From Thermus antranikianii DSM 12462 (GTDB lineage: Bacteria; Deinococcota; Deinococci; Deinococcales; Thermaceae), in the NCBI RefSeq assembly GCF_000423905.1, contig NZ_AUIW01000006.1:1-64000 (forward strand): a stretch of DNA of 64,000 nt, written 5' to 3'. Below the pieces are notes generated by a model. It had not been told where the DNA came from. It saw only the letters and a list, made by a program, of their open reading frames with translations, and searched no databases. Shown piece by piece: positions 34,790 through 45,360 of this stretch (the first letter of the stretch is position 1; every line of letters starts with the position of its first letter). Position numbers and translations under genes: made by a program.

Positions 34790-34800
34790 CCCTTCAGTCT

Positions 34801-35560
34801 AATGCCCCTGGGCCAGGCTCTGGGCCACGATGAAGGCCCCCATGGCCACCAGGAAAAGGGCAAACCCCCGCCTCAGGCCCCCCTGGGGTAGCCGCACCGC
34901 CAGCCGGCCGCCCAGGAAGCTTCCCAGGGTTCCCACTCCCACGAAGAGGAGGGCCACCCCGTAGTTGACGGCCAGGCCCAGCTCGGGCAAAAGGTGCAGG
35001 TACTTGTAGAAGCCGGCGAAGGACTTGAGGGCGATGATGAAGAGGCTGGTTCCGATGGCCAGGTGCATGGGAAGCCCTCCCAAAAGGACCAGGGCGGGCA
35101 CGATGAGAAAGCCCCCGCCCACCCCCACGAAGCCGGTGAGGGCTCCCACCGAAAGCCCCTCCAGGAGGATCTTCCAGGGCTTGCGGCTTCCTTCCCCCTC
35201 GGCCCTTAGGGGGCTTGGCCGGGCCATGAGGTAGGCGGCAAGAAGCATCACCAGGGCGAAGGTGAGAAGCTGCACCTCCCCGGAAACGAAGCGGGAAAGC
35301 CAGGCCCCCAGGTAGGTGCCCGCCATGCCCGGAAGGCCGAAGAAGAACACGTTGCGCCAGTCCACCAGGCCCCTTAGAGCGTAGGGCAGGGCTCCCAGAA
35401 GGGCGATCCCCCCCACGATGAGAAGGCTTTCGGCGATGGCCTGCTTGGGGGGCTCCCCCAGGAGGTAGACCAGCACGGGCACGGTGAGAATAGACCCCCC
35501 TGAGCCCAGTAGCCCCAGGGAAAGCCCGATGAGAAGAGCGCCAAGAAGGGCTAGGCTCAT
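34801..35560 (-). CDS. TauE/SafE-family sulfite (or sulfur-oxyanion) exporter
   Basis: 253 residues with eight predicted membrane helices in two repeats. The paired motifs GLSLGLLGSGGSILTVPVLV and TGFVGVGGGFLIVPALVLLG mark the family. It likely exports sulfite or thiosulfate made by the neighbouring persulfide enzymes. The start overlaps the stop of the double-rhodanese gene, so both are in one operon. Confidence 0.85.
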
Positions 35561-36216
35561 CGCTCGATCGGCAAGCTCGCGCCCATCCAGGCGTAGGTGC
35601 CCCCCTCGAGGTTGTACACCCGTTCCCCGGGGAAGCCCTGGCCCACCAGGAAGTCCGCCGCCACCCCCGAGCGGTTGCCGGAGTTGCAGACCAGGAGGAT
35701 GGGCCGGTCCTTGGGCAGGTCCTTAAGCCTTTGCGGCAGGGAGGAGAGGGGGATGTTCACCGCCCCGGGCACGTGCCCGTCCGCGTACTCCCAGGGCTCC
35801 CGCACGTCCACCACCAAGGCTTCCTGCAAAAGCTTTTCCGCCTCGTGGGGGCCCACCTCCTGGTACGGGGTGGCGGTGTAGCCCACCTCCACCGGGCTGG
35901 TGTCCACGGGGAGCCCTGCCCTGTACCAGTGGACGATGCCCCCCTCGAGGTTGTAGACGTTCCCGTAGCCCTGGGCGGTGAGCCAGGCGGCCGCCTGCCA
36001 GGAGCGGTTTCCCGTGCGGCAGTAGAGGACCACGGGCCGGTCCTTGGGGATTTCCCCGTAGCGGGCCATGAACTCAGAGAGGGGCACTAGGCCTGCCCCA
36101 GGAATCCGGGCCTGGGCGTACTCCTCCACCTCCCGCACATCGATGAACGCCACGCCCTGGTCGTGGAGCTTCTTGGCTTCCTCTGGGCTCAGGTCCTTGA
36201 CCTCGGCTTCGTACAT
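35557..36216 (-). CDS. Tandem rhodanese (sulfurtransferase)
   Basis: 219 residues in two rhodanese domains, with active-site loops VLYCRTGNRSW (~85) and LLVCNSGNRSG (~185), both with the catalytic Cys. Both domains can therefore carry persulfide sulfur. The ATG at 36216 is preceded by AAGGTGG; a GTG at 36225 is a weaker option. It follows the MBL-rhodanese gene after a strong hairpin and overlaps the TauE gene. Confidence 0.85.
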   Translation of the reverse strand: MYEAEVKDLSPEEAKKLHDQGVAFIDVREVEEYAQARIPGAGLVPLSEFMARYGEIPKDRPVVLYCRTGNRSWQAAAWLTAQGYGNVYNLEGGIVHWYRAGLPVDTSPVEVGYTATPYQEVGPHEAEKLLQEALVVDVREPWEYADGHVPGAVNIPLSSLPQRLKDLPKDRPILLVCNSGNRSGVAADFLVGQGFPGERVYNLEGGTYAWMGASLPIER

Positions 36217-36237
36217 GTTTACCACCTTGGGGTGTTT

Positions 36238-36276: not shown

Positions 36277-37713
36277 TCAGGCGCTTACCAGCTCCTCGCC
36301 CTTTTCCACCGGGAAGCCTGCTTCCTGCCAGGCCCTAATCCCCCCGGTGAGGTTCAGGGCGTTCCTGAAGCCGTGGGACAAGAGGGCGCTGATGGCGGTG
36401 CTGGAGCGGTCCCCGCCCACGCAGTGCACGATGAGGGGCTTGTCCTTGGGGAGCTTGTCCAGGTGGGCGAGGACGCGGCCGGCATGGATGTTCAAGGCCC
36501 CGGGGATGTGCCCGGCCAGGTACTCGTCCCGGCCCCGCACGTCCAGGATCACTGCCTCGCCCCGCTCCCAGAGGGCCTTGGCCTCTCGGGCCGTAATCTG
36601 GGGTACGGTTTCCAGCTCCCCATCCGCATACCCCTGGAGGCCAGGGATATACCCCACCACCTCATCCAGGCCAATACGGATCAGGGCCCGGGTCAGGGCT
36701 TCCACCTCGGAGGGATGGGCCAGGAGGATCAGGGGCCGGTCGTAGGGAAGAAGCCAGCCTGCCCAGGTGGAGAAGTTCTTTCCGGCAGGGATATTGATGG
36801 CCCCCCGGATGTGCCCCCCGGCGAAGGCGAACTTGTCCCGGGTGTCCACCAGGATGGCCCCCTTCCGTAGGTACCGGTCAAACTGGGCCTTGGTGAGGCG
36901 GCCAGGGTGGGGGATGCCTCCCAGGATGGGCATGCCGTCCCGGTTGAGCCGCTTCATCTCCTTGAAGTAGGTGGGGGCTTCCGGCTGACCGGCGAGAAGC
37001 GCTTTTACGAAGCCCTCCTCATCGTTCCTCTCCAGGTATTCCGCCCACCAGGCGTGCCGCTTCTCGTAGCCCACGGTGGTGGCGGGAAGGGCCCCCAGGG
37101 CCTTGCCGCAGGCGGAACCTGCCCCGTGGCCTGGCCAGACCTGCACGTGGTCGGGAAGGGTGAGGAACTTCTCCTTGAGGCTTCGGAACATGCGCCGGGC
37201 CCCGGGCAGGGCGGTGCCCTTGATGCCGGCGGCTTCCTCCAGAAGGTCCGGCCGGCCGATGTCCCCCACGAAGACGAAGTCGCCCGTGAGGAAGAGGAGG
37301 GGTTCGTCCGTCACCGCCCCATCCGCCACCAAGAAGGAAAGGTGCTCCGGGGTATGGCCCGGGGTGTGCACGGCCTTCACCCGGATATTTCCCACCCTGA
37401 ACTCATCCCCATCCCTGAGGAGGACATGGGAGAAGCCCTCCAGTCCTTTGTACTTCCAGTTCTCGTCCCCTTCGTCCGAGAGGTAGAGGGTGGCCCCGGT
37501 GGCCTTGGCCAGCTCCCGGGCTCCCGAGAGGTAGTCGGCGTGGATATGGGTTTCGGCGATGGCGGTGATGCGCAGGCCCAGGCTTTCCGCCAGCTCCAGA
37601 TAGGTGTCCACGTCCCGCTTGGGATCCACCACCAAGGCCTCCCCGGTGGCGGCGCACCCCAGGAGGTAGCTCATCTGGGCCAAGCCTTCCTCGTAAATCT
37701 GCCTGAAAACCAT
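36277..37713 (-). CDS. Metallo-beta-lactamase-fold persulfide dioxygenase-like protein with two rhodanese domains
   Basis: 478 residues. The MBL domain (~1-240) has THIHADYLSGA, HTPGHTPEH, TGDFVFVGD and PGHGAGSACGK, the ETHE1-type iron-binding set. The first rhodanese domain (~270-360) lacks a Cys in its loop (LLAHPSEV), while the second (~370-475) has VHCVGGDRS. ETHE1-type enzymes oxidise glutathione or other persulfides to sulfite, which the rhodanese can pass on. It is divergent from the PDO gene, and the shared region holds two CsoR/CstR-like palindromes. Confidence 0.85.
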   Translation of the reverse strand: MVFRQIYEEGLAQMSYLLGCAATGEALVVDPKRDVDTYLELAESLGLRITAIAETHIHADYLSGARELAKATGATLYLSDEGDENWKYKGLEGFSHVLLRDGDEFRVGNIRVKAVHTPGHTPEHLSFLVADGAVTDEPLLFLTGDFVFVGDIGRPDLLEEAAGIKGTALPGARRMFRSLKEKFLTLPDHVQVWPGHGAGSACGKALGALPATTVGYEKRHAWWAEYLERNDEEGFVKALLAGQPEAPTYFKEMKRLNRDGMPILGGIPHPGRLTKAQFDRYLRKGAILVDTRDKFAFAGGHIRGAINIPAGKNFSTWAGWLLPYDRPLILLAHPSEVEALTRALIRIGLDEVVGYIPGLQGYADGELETVPQITAREAKALWERGEAVILDVRGRDEYLAGHIPGALNIHAGRVLAHLDKLPKDKPLIVHCVGGDRSSTAISALLSHGFRNALNLTGGIRAWQEAGFPVEKGEELVSA

Positions 37714-37757
37714 GGCTTTACCTCCGGTGTGGGACTATTGTCCCCATGTCGCCAATA

Positions 37758-37772
37758 TACCCTATGGGGGTA
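37758..37772. promoter_or_regulatory. CsoR/CstR-like operator 1
   Basis: TACCC-TATGG-GGGTA is flanked by AT-rich bases and sits 45 bases upstream of the MBL-rhodanese gene. It resembles the GC-centred inverted repeats bound by CsoR-family repressors, including the persulfide sensor CstR. The assignment rests on shape and context only. Confidence 0.55.
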
Positions 37773-37847
37773 CATGGTGTCAATAGAGACAGCGTGCGCG
37801 GAGGTCTATTCTTTACGGGAAACATCTGCTATATTCAACAAAGGATG

Positions 37848-37863
37848 TACCCCTACGGGGGTA
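37848..37863. promoter_or_regulatory. CsoR/CstR-like operator 2
   Basis: TACCCCTACGGGGGTA lies 14 bases upstream of the PDO start codon, close to the other palindrome at 37758 in sequence and 90 bases away centre to centre. Each would control one arm of the divergent sulfur cluster. No CsoR/CstR gene is visible in this window. Confidence 0.55.
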
Positions 37864-37877
37864 TCCAGGAGGAGACG

Positions 37878-38567
37878 ATGGCGCTACTGGGACCTAAGGA
37901 GCAGGAGATCGTGCGCGAGCGGCTTGCCAACCTGACGCGGGATGTGGAGCTGGTGCTTTTCACCGACACCTCCACCCTGATCGTCCCGGGTAAGGAACCC
38001 TGCTTATACTGCAAGGAAACCAAGCAGCTTCTGGAGGAGCTGGCCGCCCTTTCGGATAGGCTTCACCTGGTGGTTTACGACCTGGCCACCCCCGAGGGCA
38101 GGGAGAAGGCTAAGGAGTACAGGGTGGAGGATCCCCCCACCCTGATCCTGCGGGAGAAGGGCTCCGAGGCCATCAACCTGCGCTACCGGGGTATCCCGGC
38201 GGGGTACGAGTTCGCGAGCCTCCTCGAGGACATCGAGATGCTGGGCCGCGACGGCCACGGCCTGCCGGAGAACGTGGTCCAGGAGCTTAACAACCTCCCC
38301 GAGGAAGTGGTGCTCCAGGTCTTCGTCACCCCCACCTGCCCCTACTGCCCTCAGGCGGTGCGCACCGCCCACCGCATGGCCTACGCCTCCCCCAAGGTGT
38401 GGGGCGAGATGATCGAGGCCAACGAGTTCCCCGAGCTTTCCAGCCGCTACCACATCCACGGGGTGCCCGACACCATCGTGAACCACGGCAAGGAGAGGAT
38501 CCTCGGGGCCCAGCCCCTTTCCCAGTTCCTCCAGGCCATCCGCAAGGCGGTGGGGGTGAGCGCCTAG
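37878..38567 (+). CDS. pdo: Protein disulfide oxidoreductase, two glutaredoxin-like folds
   Basis: 229 residues. It is the thermophile-type PDO with two thioredoxin-fold units and active sites CLYC (residues 42-45) and CPYC (154-157), and cis-Pro loops DPPTLIL and GVPDTIV. It forms, breaks and isomerises disulfides in the cytoplasm of thermophiles. AGGAGGAG precedes the ATG. The gene leads a plus-strand operon (PDO, lipoprotein rhodanese, Lgt/TlpA-like) under the second palindromic operator, so a role in persulfide or thiol stress is likely. Confidence 0.85.
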   Translation: MALLGPKEQEIVRERLANLTRDVELVLFTDTSTLIVPGKEPCLYCKETKQLLEELAALSDRLHLVVYDLATPEGREKAKEYRVEDPPTLILREKGSEAINLRYRGIPAGYEFASLLEDIEMLGRDGHGLPENVVQELNNLPEEVVLQVFVTPTCPYCPQAVRTAHRMAYASPKVWGEMIEANEFPELSSRYHIHGVPDTIVNHGKERILGAQPLSQFLQAIRKAVGVSA

Positions 38568-38568
38568 C

Positions 38569-38943
38569 ATGACCCGGCGGGCGCTACTTGGGCTTTTTGC
38601 CCTCCTGGCCCTGGTGGCTTGCGGGCCCAGGGGAAGCTACCAGAACATCGGCCCCCAGGAGCTCTACCAGGCGGTGGATCAGGGAGCGGTGGTGGTGGAC
38701 GTGCGTACCCCCCAGGAGTTTGCCGAGGGGCACGTCCCCGGGGCCATCAACCTCCCGGTGGAAGCCATTCCCCAGTGGGCGGATACCCTTCCTAAGGACA
38801 AGCCGGTCTACCTCTATTGCCGTAGCGGGAACCGCAGCCGCCAGGCGGCGGAGTACCTGAAGCGGAAGGGGTATACCAACCTCTACAACCTCGAGGGCGG
38901 GATCCTGGCCATCCAAAGAGAGGGCTTCCCCTTGGTTCGCTGA
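38569..38943 (+). CDS. Rhodanese lipoprotein
   Basis: 124 residues. The lipoprotein signal FALLALVACG has the lipobox Cys at ~18. A single rhodanese domain follows, with LYCRSGNRSRQA as the active-site loop. It should sit on the outer face of the membrane and shuttle sulfane sulfur. It starts 1 base after PDO and overlaps the next gene by 1 base. Confidence 0.85.
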   Translation: MTRRALLGLFALLALVACGPRGSYQNIGPQELYQAVDQGAVVVDVRTPQEFAEGHVPGAINLPVEAIPQWADTLPKDKPVYLYCRSGNRSRQAAEYLKRKGYTNLYNLEGGILAIQREGFPLVR

Positions 38944-39734
38944 TGGATGCGGTGCAGGTAGGGCCCTTCGCCATTCCCTGGGCCAGGTTCCAGGTGTTCC
39001 TGGCCCTTCTGGCCATGGTGGCGGTGGCTGAGGTCCTGGCCCGAAGGGTGGACCGGAGGCTTGCCCCGTGGACCTACAACGCCATCCTTGCGGGGTTTCT
39101 TGGGGCCCGAATCGGCTTCGTTTTGGAAAACGCATCCGTTTACGCCCGGGATCCCCTTTCCATCCTCTACGTGTGGCAAGGGGGGTTTGACCCCCTTTGG
39201 GGTATCCTGGCTGCGGGGGGGTACACGCTGATGGCATTGCCCAAGAACCTCTGGCGGTATGCCCTGTTCGCCGCTTTGGCGGCGGGCTTGGTCTTTGGGG
39301 TCTTCCTGGTGCAGAGGCGGGGAGGGGAGGAGGTGCGCCTGCCCTCCCTCACCCTCACCACCCTGGGGGGCACCCCGGTGAACCTGCAGGACTTCCGGGG
39401 GAAGCCTTTGGTCCTGAACCTCTGGGCCACCTGGTGTCCTCCTTGCAGGCGGGAACTACCCATGATGGTGCGCCTGAGCCAGGAAAACCCGGATGTACGC
39501 TTTGCCTTCGCCAGCCAAGGGGAGGGGCCGGTGGTGGTGCGGAACTTTCTGGAGGAAGAGAGGCTCGCTCCCGAGTGGGTTCTCCTGGATCCGGAGACCC
39601 AGCTTTCCCAGGTCCTGAAGACCCAGGGCCTCCCCACCACCTTTTTCTTTGACCGGGAGGGGCGCTTGGTGGCCCGGCACCTGGGGGAGCTTTCCGAGGC
39701 CCTTCTTCTTGGGTACCTGAGGGTTTTGCGTTAG
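38943..39734 (+). CDS. Lgt-like membrane domain fused to a TlpA-type thioredoxin domain
   Basis: 263 residues. The first ~115 have three or four membrane helices that read like a truncated prolipoprotein diacylglyceryl transferase (GFLGARIGFVLENASVY, LYVWQGGF, WGILAAGG), without the catalytic His-Gly region. From ~130 a TlpA/ResA-like domain carries WATWCPPCR (C-x-x-C) and a cis-Pro in GLPTTFFF. The thioredoxin part should lie outside the membrane and reduce cytochrome or rhodanese thiols. Co-transcription with a lipoprotein suggests partnership. Lgt catalysis itself is unlikely. Confidence 0.7.
   Translation: MDAVQVGPFAIPWARFQVFLALLAMVAVAEVLARRVDRRLAPWTYNAILAGFLGARIGFVLENASVYARDPLSILYVWQGGFDPLWGILAAGGYTLMALPKNLWRYALFAALAAGLVFGVFLVQRRGGEEVRLPSLTLTTLGGTPVNLQDFRGKPLVLNLWATWCPPCRRELPMMVRLSQENPDVRFAFASQGEGPVVVRNFLEEERLAPEWVLLDPETQLSQVLKTQGLPTTFFFDREGRLVARHLGELSEALLLGYLRVLR

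Positions 39735-42159: not shown

Positions 42160-42163
<4 letters not shown>
41120..42163 (-). CDS. yeaH: DUF444 (YeaH/YhbH) protein with VWA-like domain
   Basis: 347 residues. A basic N-terminus is followed by a C-terminal von Willebrand A-like domain with the metal site motif [14 protein letters not shown] (~residues 190-203). It is the standard partner of PrkA/YeaG kinase. The start overlaps the prkA stop by 4 bases. Confidence 0.85.

Positions 42164-45360
<3,197 letters not shown>

Follow-up and report, generated by a model that had tools for sequence, protein, structure and literature searches.

Between the divergent genes for a CstB-like enzyme and a protein disulfide oxidoreductase (PDO) of Thermus antranikianii DSM 12462 lie two palindromes, and the question raised by this locus is whether they are operators and, if so, which protein reads them. 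The window analyzed here is 64 kb in length (positions 1–64,000 of NZ_AUIW01000006.1, assembly GCF_000423905.1). The divergent gap measures 164 bp, from the ATG at 37713 (minus strand) to the ATG at 37878, and both palindromes lie within it exactly as an earlier note on this DNA had described. That note read them as CsoR/CstR-type operators at persulfide genes, a reading that sequence evidence supports: the sites and their conservation, the promoter geometry, the cysteines of a candidate regulator and the presence of a separate copper-sensor operator. Both palindromes are probably operators for a CstR-like thiol switch, a repressor of the CsoR family that is most likely the protein designated P0001 acting in trans and would shut off cstB and PDO.

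Genes Flanking the Palindromes

Domain matches bear out the flanking genes listed in the earlier note, the "PDO" of that list being a protein disulfide oxidoreductase (Table 1). The assignment of PDO is based on a TIGR02187 score of 250.4 bits (cut-off 185) and a match to PDB 1a8l (E 3e-44). The cstB-like protein aligns over its length with 3r2u (residues 1–460, E 3e-107), which is taken here to be the CstB-type enzyme of Staphylococcus aureus. The characteristic content of a cst operon, namely CstB (persulfide dioxygenase-rhodanese), a rhodanese and TauE, is thus complete, and the gene order around the sites is kept across Thermus. Twenty-seven Thermus genomes were searched, all of which have the start of a cstB-like gene and its upstream DNA; this number includes one genome with a truncated cstB-like gene (G009) and one in which the contig is cut (G020). 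In G009 (L165, around 1501–1644), only the first 48 codons of cstB survive, yet the tandem rhodanese and PDO genes still have both operators ahead of them, and TauE is also kept.

Table 1. Features of the cstB–PDO region of T. antranikianii, with positions in the 64-kb window.
Feature	Position	Strand	Description
TauE/SafE sulfite-exporter-like	34799..35560	-	PF01925, E 1.2e-49
Tandem rhodanese	35557..36225	-	2x PF00581; after cstB in nearly all Thermus loci
cstB-like	36277..37713	-	ETHE1-type persulfide dioxygenase domain and two rhodanese domains; PF00753 + 2x PF00581
Inverted repeat	37731..37744	.	GGGACTATTGTCCC; predicted cstB leader; second conserved element
cstB promoter -10	37754..37759	-	TATATT; 2-bp overlap with operator 1; TATnnT in 27/27
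Operator 1 (site 1, predicted)	37758..37772	.	TACCCTATGGGGGTA; toward cstB, TACCCCCATAGGGTA; occupies cstB promoter spacer
cstB promoter -35	37778..37783	-	TTGACA; TTGAC invariant in 27/27
PDO promoter extended -10	37827..37835	+	TGCTATATT; promoter assignment inferred
Operator 2 (site 2, predicted)	37848..37863	.	TACCCCTACGGGGGTA; 3' of PDO -10, 5' of PDO ribosome-binding site
Protein disulfide oxidoreductase (PDO)	37878..38567	+	TIGR02187 equivalog; CLYC and CPYC motifs
Rhodanese lipoprotein	38569..38943	+	PF00581; after PDO in Thermus loci
Prolipoprotein diacylglyceryl transferase-like membrane part fused to TlpA/ResA-like thioredoxin domain	38943..39734	+	PF01790 + PF08534

The palindromes are non-coding: PDO homologues align from 37878, while the ORF caller stretches the frame to 37746. 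The PDO frame remains open up to that position and spans both palindromes, and an over-long automatic PDO call could mask the operators.

A Candidate Repressor Encoded in trans

The earlier note placed the repressor gene outside the window, and the gene for the likely repressor indeed lies elsewhere in the genome. The genome encodes two proteins of the CsoR family (PF02583), P0001 and P0002, of which P0001 (84.6 bits, cut-off 22.8) is an orthologue of T. thermophilus TTHA1953 and lies on a different contig from the cst/PDO sites, so that the linkage of regulator and cst operon is not found in Thermus. The genome search proposed in the note, for a family member without the copper ligand set, recovered P0001; a copper sensor standing alone, the outcome counted there against the proposal, did not occur. 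An orthologue of P0001 is found in 26 of the 27 genomes and is absent solely from one assembly that is 65% complete. Residues C39, C68 and F64 are kept in all 26 orthologues, the Phe occupying the copper-His position, and the KRLxRIEGQVRGLQKM segment that holds conserved residues of P0001 is almost invariant among them. The copper-His position is His in CsoR and InrS and Ala in 7mq1/7mq3, presumably the CstR of Streptococcus pneumoniae. P0001 therefore has the features of a CstR-type sensor, two conserved cysteines without the copper-ligand His; among PDB entries it matches CsoR and InrS best, with 7mq1/7mq3 lower in rank. The claim made here on sequence features is accordingly one of function, that P0001 works like CstR, and not one of membership in the CstR subfamily. 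The cysteines of TTHA1953 carry the same numbers, C39 and C68, in the published account (PMC10318464).

Regulator-Linked Loci in Meiothermus and Calidithermus

In four loci of Meiothermus and Calidithermus (L038, L048, L050, L051), a CsoR-family gene whose product has two cysteines, and Tyr at the copper-His position, lies within the cst cluster. Operator-like palindromes stand ahead of this gene (TACCCCTGAGGGATA) and ahead of cstB, where TACCCCCTAGGGGTA and TATACCCCCCGGGGATATA flank a TTGACA. In a further locus (L049), a two-Cys CsoR-family gene follows PDO and is divergent from cstB. The cst-linked regulator, the similarity of the operators and the PDO neighbor in L049 together tie both the operator type and PDO to a regulator of this kind. 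Three of the clusters (L048, L050, L051), from two Meiothermus species and Calidithermus chliarophilus, are near-identical, regulator included, and look to have moved horizontally; that of L048 adjoins a heavy-metal ATPase-like gene.

These loci bear on the strongest competing explanation, a repressor from outside the CsoR family such as an ArsR-type persulfide sensor resembling SqrR or BigR, which we consider unlikely. Regulators of that type control analogous proteobacterial genes (BigR, PMC5823870), and the cstB leader holds another conserved inverted repeat, GGGAC-N4-GTCCC, which leaves room for an additional factor. Nevertheless, the palindromes are of the CsoR-family type, as judged from the ATACC-N6-GGTAT sites described for ScCsoR (PMC7533328), and it is a two-Cys CsoR-family gene that accompanies similar operators in Meiothermus and Calidithermus. 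The leader repeat itself, GGGACTATTGTCCC, is conserved across the Thermus genomes within the predicted leader of cstB, and is a candidate for a second regulator site or a leader hairpin. Exact GGGACN4GTCCC is rarer in the genome than its control (five copies versus 27 for the reversed pattern), and further copies occur in the gap separating a litR-like from a crtB-like gene (L223) and next to a respiratory cytochrome/molybdopterin operon (L226). A similar sequence, GTACAAATGTCC, is present in soxW promoters.

The Copper Sensor and Its Own Operator

The second family member, P0002, is TtCsoR (PDB 3aai, E 1e-50), and its gene adjoins copZ. Binding of the two palindromes by this copper sensor, which would couple the cst genes to copper, has in its favor that operators of the CsoR family are generally TACCC..GGGTA-like and that P0002 is one of just two family members in the genome. 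It is nonetheless very unlikely to be the regulator of the cst sites, because its own copZ promoter bears a different operator, CCCCACCCCAGGTGGGGTGGG, resembling the published TtCsoR site (PMC10318464); a copper operator of the CCCCACCCCACCTGGGGTGGGG-like form is present at copZ, and the cst sites do not fit it. In that study, the TTHA1953 motif was not recognized by TtCsoR (PMC10318464). P0002 also lacks the EGQVRGLQKM-type segment that is common to P0001, the cst-linked regulators and, nearly, the CsoR of Geobacillus.

Promoter Geometry

Site 1 is embedded in the cstB promoter, in which the -35 TTGAC sits 5 or 6 bases from the palindrome and the opposite end of the palindrome overlaps TATnnT. 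The spacer between the -35 and -10 elements is 18 bp here and, from the lengths of the composite matches described below, 17 or 18 bp throughout the 27 genomes. In the PDO promoter, the TATA of the -10 is invariant in the Thermus alignment and the upstream TGn nearly so. With their TACC...GGTA ends, C/G tracts and positions at promoters, the cst sites have the properties of CsoR/CstR operators. A palindrome inside a promoter spacer is also what a MerR-family activator acting on site 1 would use, since MerR operators likewise lie between -35 and -10. MerR promoters typically have a stretched spacer of 19–20 bp, which none of the 27 promoters has, and site 2 follows the -10, a position from which MerR proteins normally do not act; an activator of this family is very unlikely.

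Conservation of the Sites

TACCC-N4..7-GGGTA has two matches in the whole window, exactly these two sites, and the number expected per 164 bp is 0.0005 under a Markov model of window composition or 0.008 with local intergenic composition. Genome-wide, the bare palindrome pattern is not enriched (18 sites versus 17 for the reversed control), so that the motif by itself proves nothing and the case must be carried by positional conservation. Most of the remaining genome matches fall within likely genes, three (L008, L009, L014) being not clearly coding.

All 27 Thermus genomes have an intact site 1, in which 11 of the 15 columns are invariant; the outer columns are fixed and the center following TACCC varies (CCATA, CCATG, CGGTA, CCCAT, CACAT). 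Site 2 is degenerate in two of the loci (L162 and L164) and intact in the other 25 of 27. Mean identity in the Thermus alignment is 0.91 for site 1, 0.92 for site 2 and 0.66 for the stretch between them. The composite pattern TTGAC-N5/6-TACCCC-N4-GGGTAT occurs once in each of the 27 genomes, always at the cstB promoter, and its reversed control is zero. Chance palindromes in GC-rich DNA, for which the lack of genome-wide enrichment would speak, can hardly account for sites kept in 27 of 27 genomes with varying centers, a single composite match per genome and reversed controls of zero.

Relationship to the TTHA1953 Regulon

In T. thermophilus HB8, TTHA1953 represses the sox genes, the TTHA1326 cytochrome gene and others, and drops its DNA upon cysteine oxidation, according to the report that described it (Barrows & Van Dyke 2023, PMC10318464). 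There, NaHS failed to release the protein from DNA, and a one-base change in spacing lowered its affinity 10- to 15-fold (PMC10318464). The parts of the report considered here do not name the cst/PDO divergon among the TTHA1953 targets, and the authors describe the verified sites as free of C/G runs longer than three (PMC10318464). The TTHA1953 motif is a 20-bp double motif, whereas the cst sites are 15–16 bp long with C4/G4-5 tracts. The REPSA motif TACNNTACNNNNGTANNGTA is matched at only 8 of 12 positions by site 1 and, in the best register scored, at 7 of 12 by site 2; matches of at least 9 of 12 (3 mismatches) occur genome-wide at chance level, 141 versus 154 in the reversed control. On one reading, the 20-bp motif comprises two TAC-N9-GTA units staggered by 5 bp, and site 1 would be a single unit. 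The spacing of site 1 is exactly TAC-N9-GTA, and that of site 2 is N10, one base longer. The weak motif matches, the C/G tracts, the N10 spacing of site 2 and the NaHS result speak against P0001 as the reader of these sites.

The orthology of P0001 to TTHA1953 is matched by related palindromes at orthologues of verified targets. The sox/cytochrome divergon of T. antranikianii carries TACCCCGGAGGGTA; as read toward soxW, TACCCTCCGGGGTA is present at this divergon in 17 of 24 genomes, and the ribosome-binding GGAGG forms part of the palindrome. Ahead of soxW, 22 of 24 genomes keep a TAC-N9-GTA element. TACCCATCGGGGGTA precedes a TTHA1326-like cytochrome gene adjoining sulfite oxidase-like and mutS/mutL-like genes, an order that HB8 presumably matches around its TTHA1326 cytochrome. 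Fewer than half of the orthologues of this sulfite-oxidase cytochrome gene have such a site.

A published negative result was considered as a candidate for the cst promoter of HB8. In one Thermus genome (G016), rpsB lies 15 kb from cstB, and rpsB is taken to be about TTHA0861 in HB8; the TTHA0653/4 promoter is therefore probably not the cst promoter. That promoter, with its tract of four C residues, was unbound by TTHA1953 in the published study (PMC10318464).

A Proposed Model for Persulfide-Responsive Control

The model infers binding of both sites by P0001, with persulfide as the signal and a role for PDO in the response. Reduced P0001 would occupy site 1 between the cstB -35 and -10 elements, and site 2 where the PDO transcript begins, holding both promoters off. 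A rise in persulfide or polysulfide would then link Cys39 to Cys68' across neighboring subunits, as a disulfide or perhaps a tri- or tetrasulfide, and release the DNA; persulfide sensing by P0001 is argued from its cysteines, the gene content of the locus and the relatives of the protein. Upon derepression, CstB and the rhodaneses may oxidize and shuttle sulfane sulfur, TauE may export sulfite, and PDO may restore thiols together with the periplasmic rhodanese and TlpA proteins.

A broader proposal, offered tentatively and with somewhat less than even confidence, is that one unlinked thiol-switch repressor joins cytoplasmic persulfide clearance (CstB, rhodaneses, TauE), the PDO arm and Sox lithotrophy in the periplasm. 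Its operators would come in two geometries, both based on one TAC-N9/10-GTA unit, the published motif being only half of the repressor's code, and PDO might reset the oxidized repressor.

Comparison With Known Persulfide Regulons

CsoR-family control of persulfide dioxygenases has been described in several bacteria, including that of cstB by CstR in S. aureus (PMC5480029), of ScPDO, tauE and a rhodanese gene by ScCsoR in Streptomyces coelicolor (PMC7533328), and of pdo by YrkD in Bacillus licheniformis (PMC9918477). The earlier note knew of no PDO placed in a CstR regulon; read as persulfide dioxygenase, this is mistaken, as CstR, ScCsoR and YrkD control such enzymes and the CstB-like neighbor is of the same type. 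Read as protein disulfide oxidoreductase, the statement met no precedent in a literature search of incomplete coverage that combined this protein with persulfide and rhodanese. The note's overall interpretation is supported for the operators and the trans-encoded regulator and fails for the novelty of PDO if that name means the dioxygenase. A search for Thermus together with CstB or persulfide dioxygenase listed no literature judged relevant.

In the cst operon of S. aureus, the same trio of CstB, rhodanese and TauE answers to a persulfide sensor of the CsoR family with two cysteines (PMC5480029). The Thermus locus differs in its unlinked regulator and in a divergent arm of PDO, rhodanese lipoprotein and TlpA genes with its own predicted operator, and sqr is absent from the neighboring genes that were examined. 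The ScCsoR circuit shares a PDO-rhodanese fusion (there a dioxygenase), TauE and a rhodanese; its dioxygenase promoter bears a pair of ATACC-N6-GGTAT operators, and ScCsoR has two sensing cysteines, at positions 37 and 66 (PMC7533328). In contrast to Thermus, the ScCsoR gene lies in its cluster, and protein disulfide oxidoreductase does not appear in the passages considered (PMC7533328). The B. licheniformis cluster resembles the Thermus locus in having a CstR-like repressor of dioxygenase, rhodanese, TauE and the thioredoxin-like YdfQ, and differs in having a second layer of control, NreBC, and the regulator as its first gene (PMC9918477). The Thermus case probably belongs to an established type of regulon, here with an orphan regulator and a PDO branch, and what seems new is the PDO arm with its own conserved predicted operator, the regulator encoded in trans and a probable joining of detoxification to Sox control.

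If the model is correct, the TTHA1953 regulon widens from sulfur energy metabolism to sulfane-sulfur detoxification, and the locus would be the first example found in which a CstR-like switch governs a protein disulfide oxidoreductase. Thermus would also offer a heat-stable, genetically tractable system for identifying the signal of TTHA1953, a question left open by its discoverers. The locus further illustrates that a selection-based motif can overlook candidate operators that are evident from comparative genomics. Elsewhere in the window, a PrkA-like kinase gene (42160–45360) appears to have an intein-like insertion.
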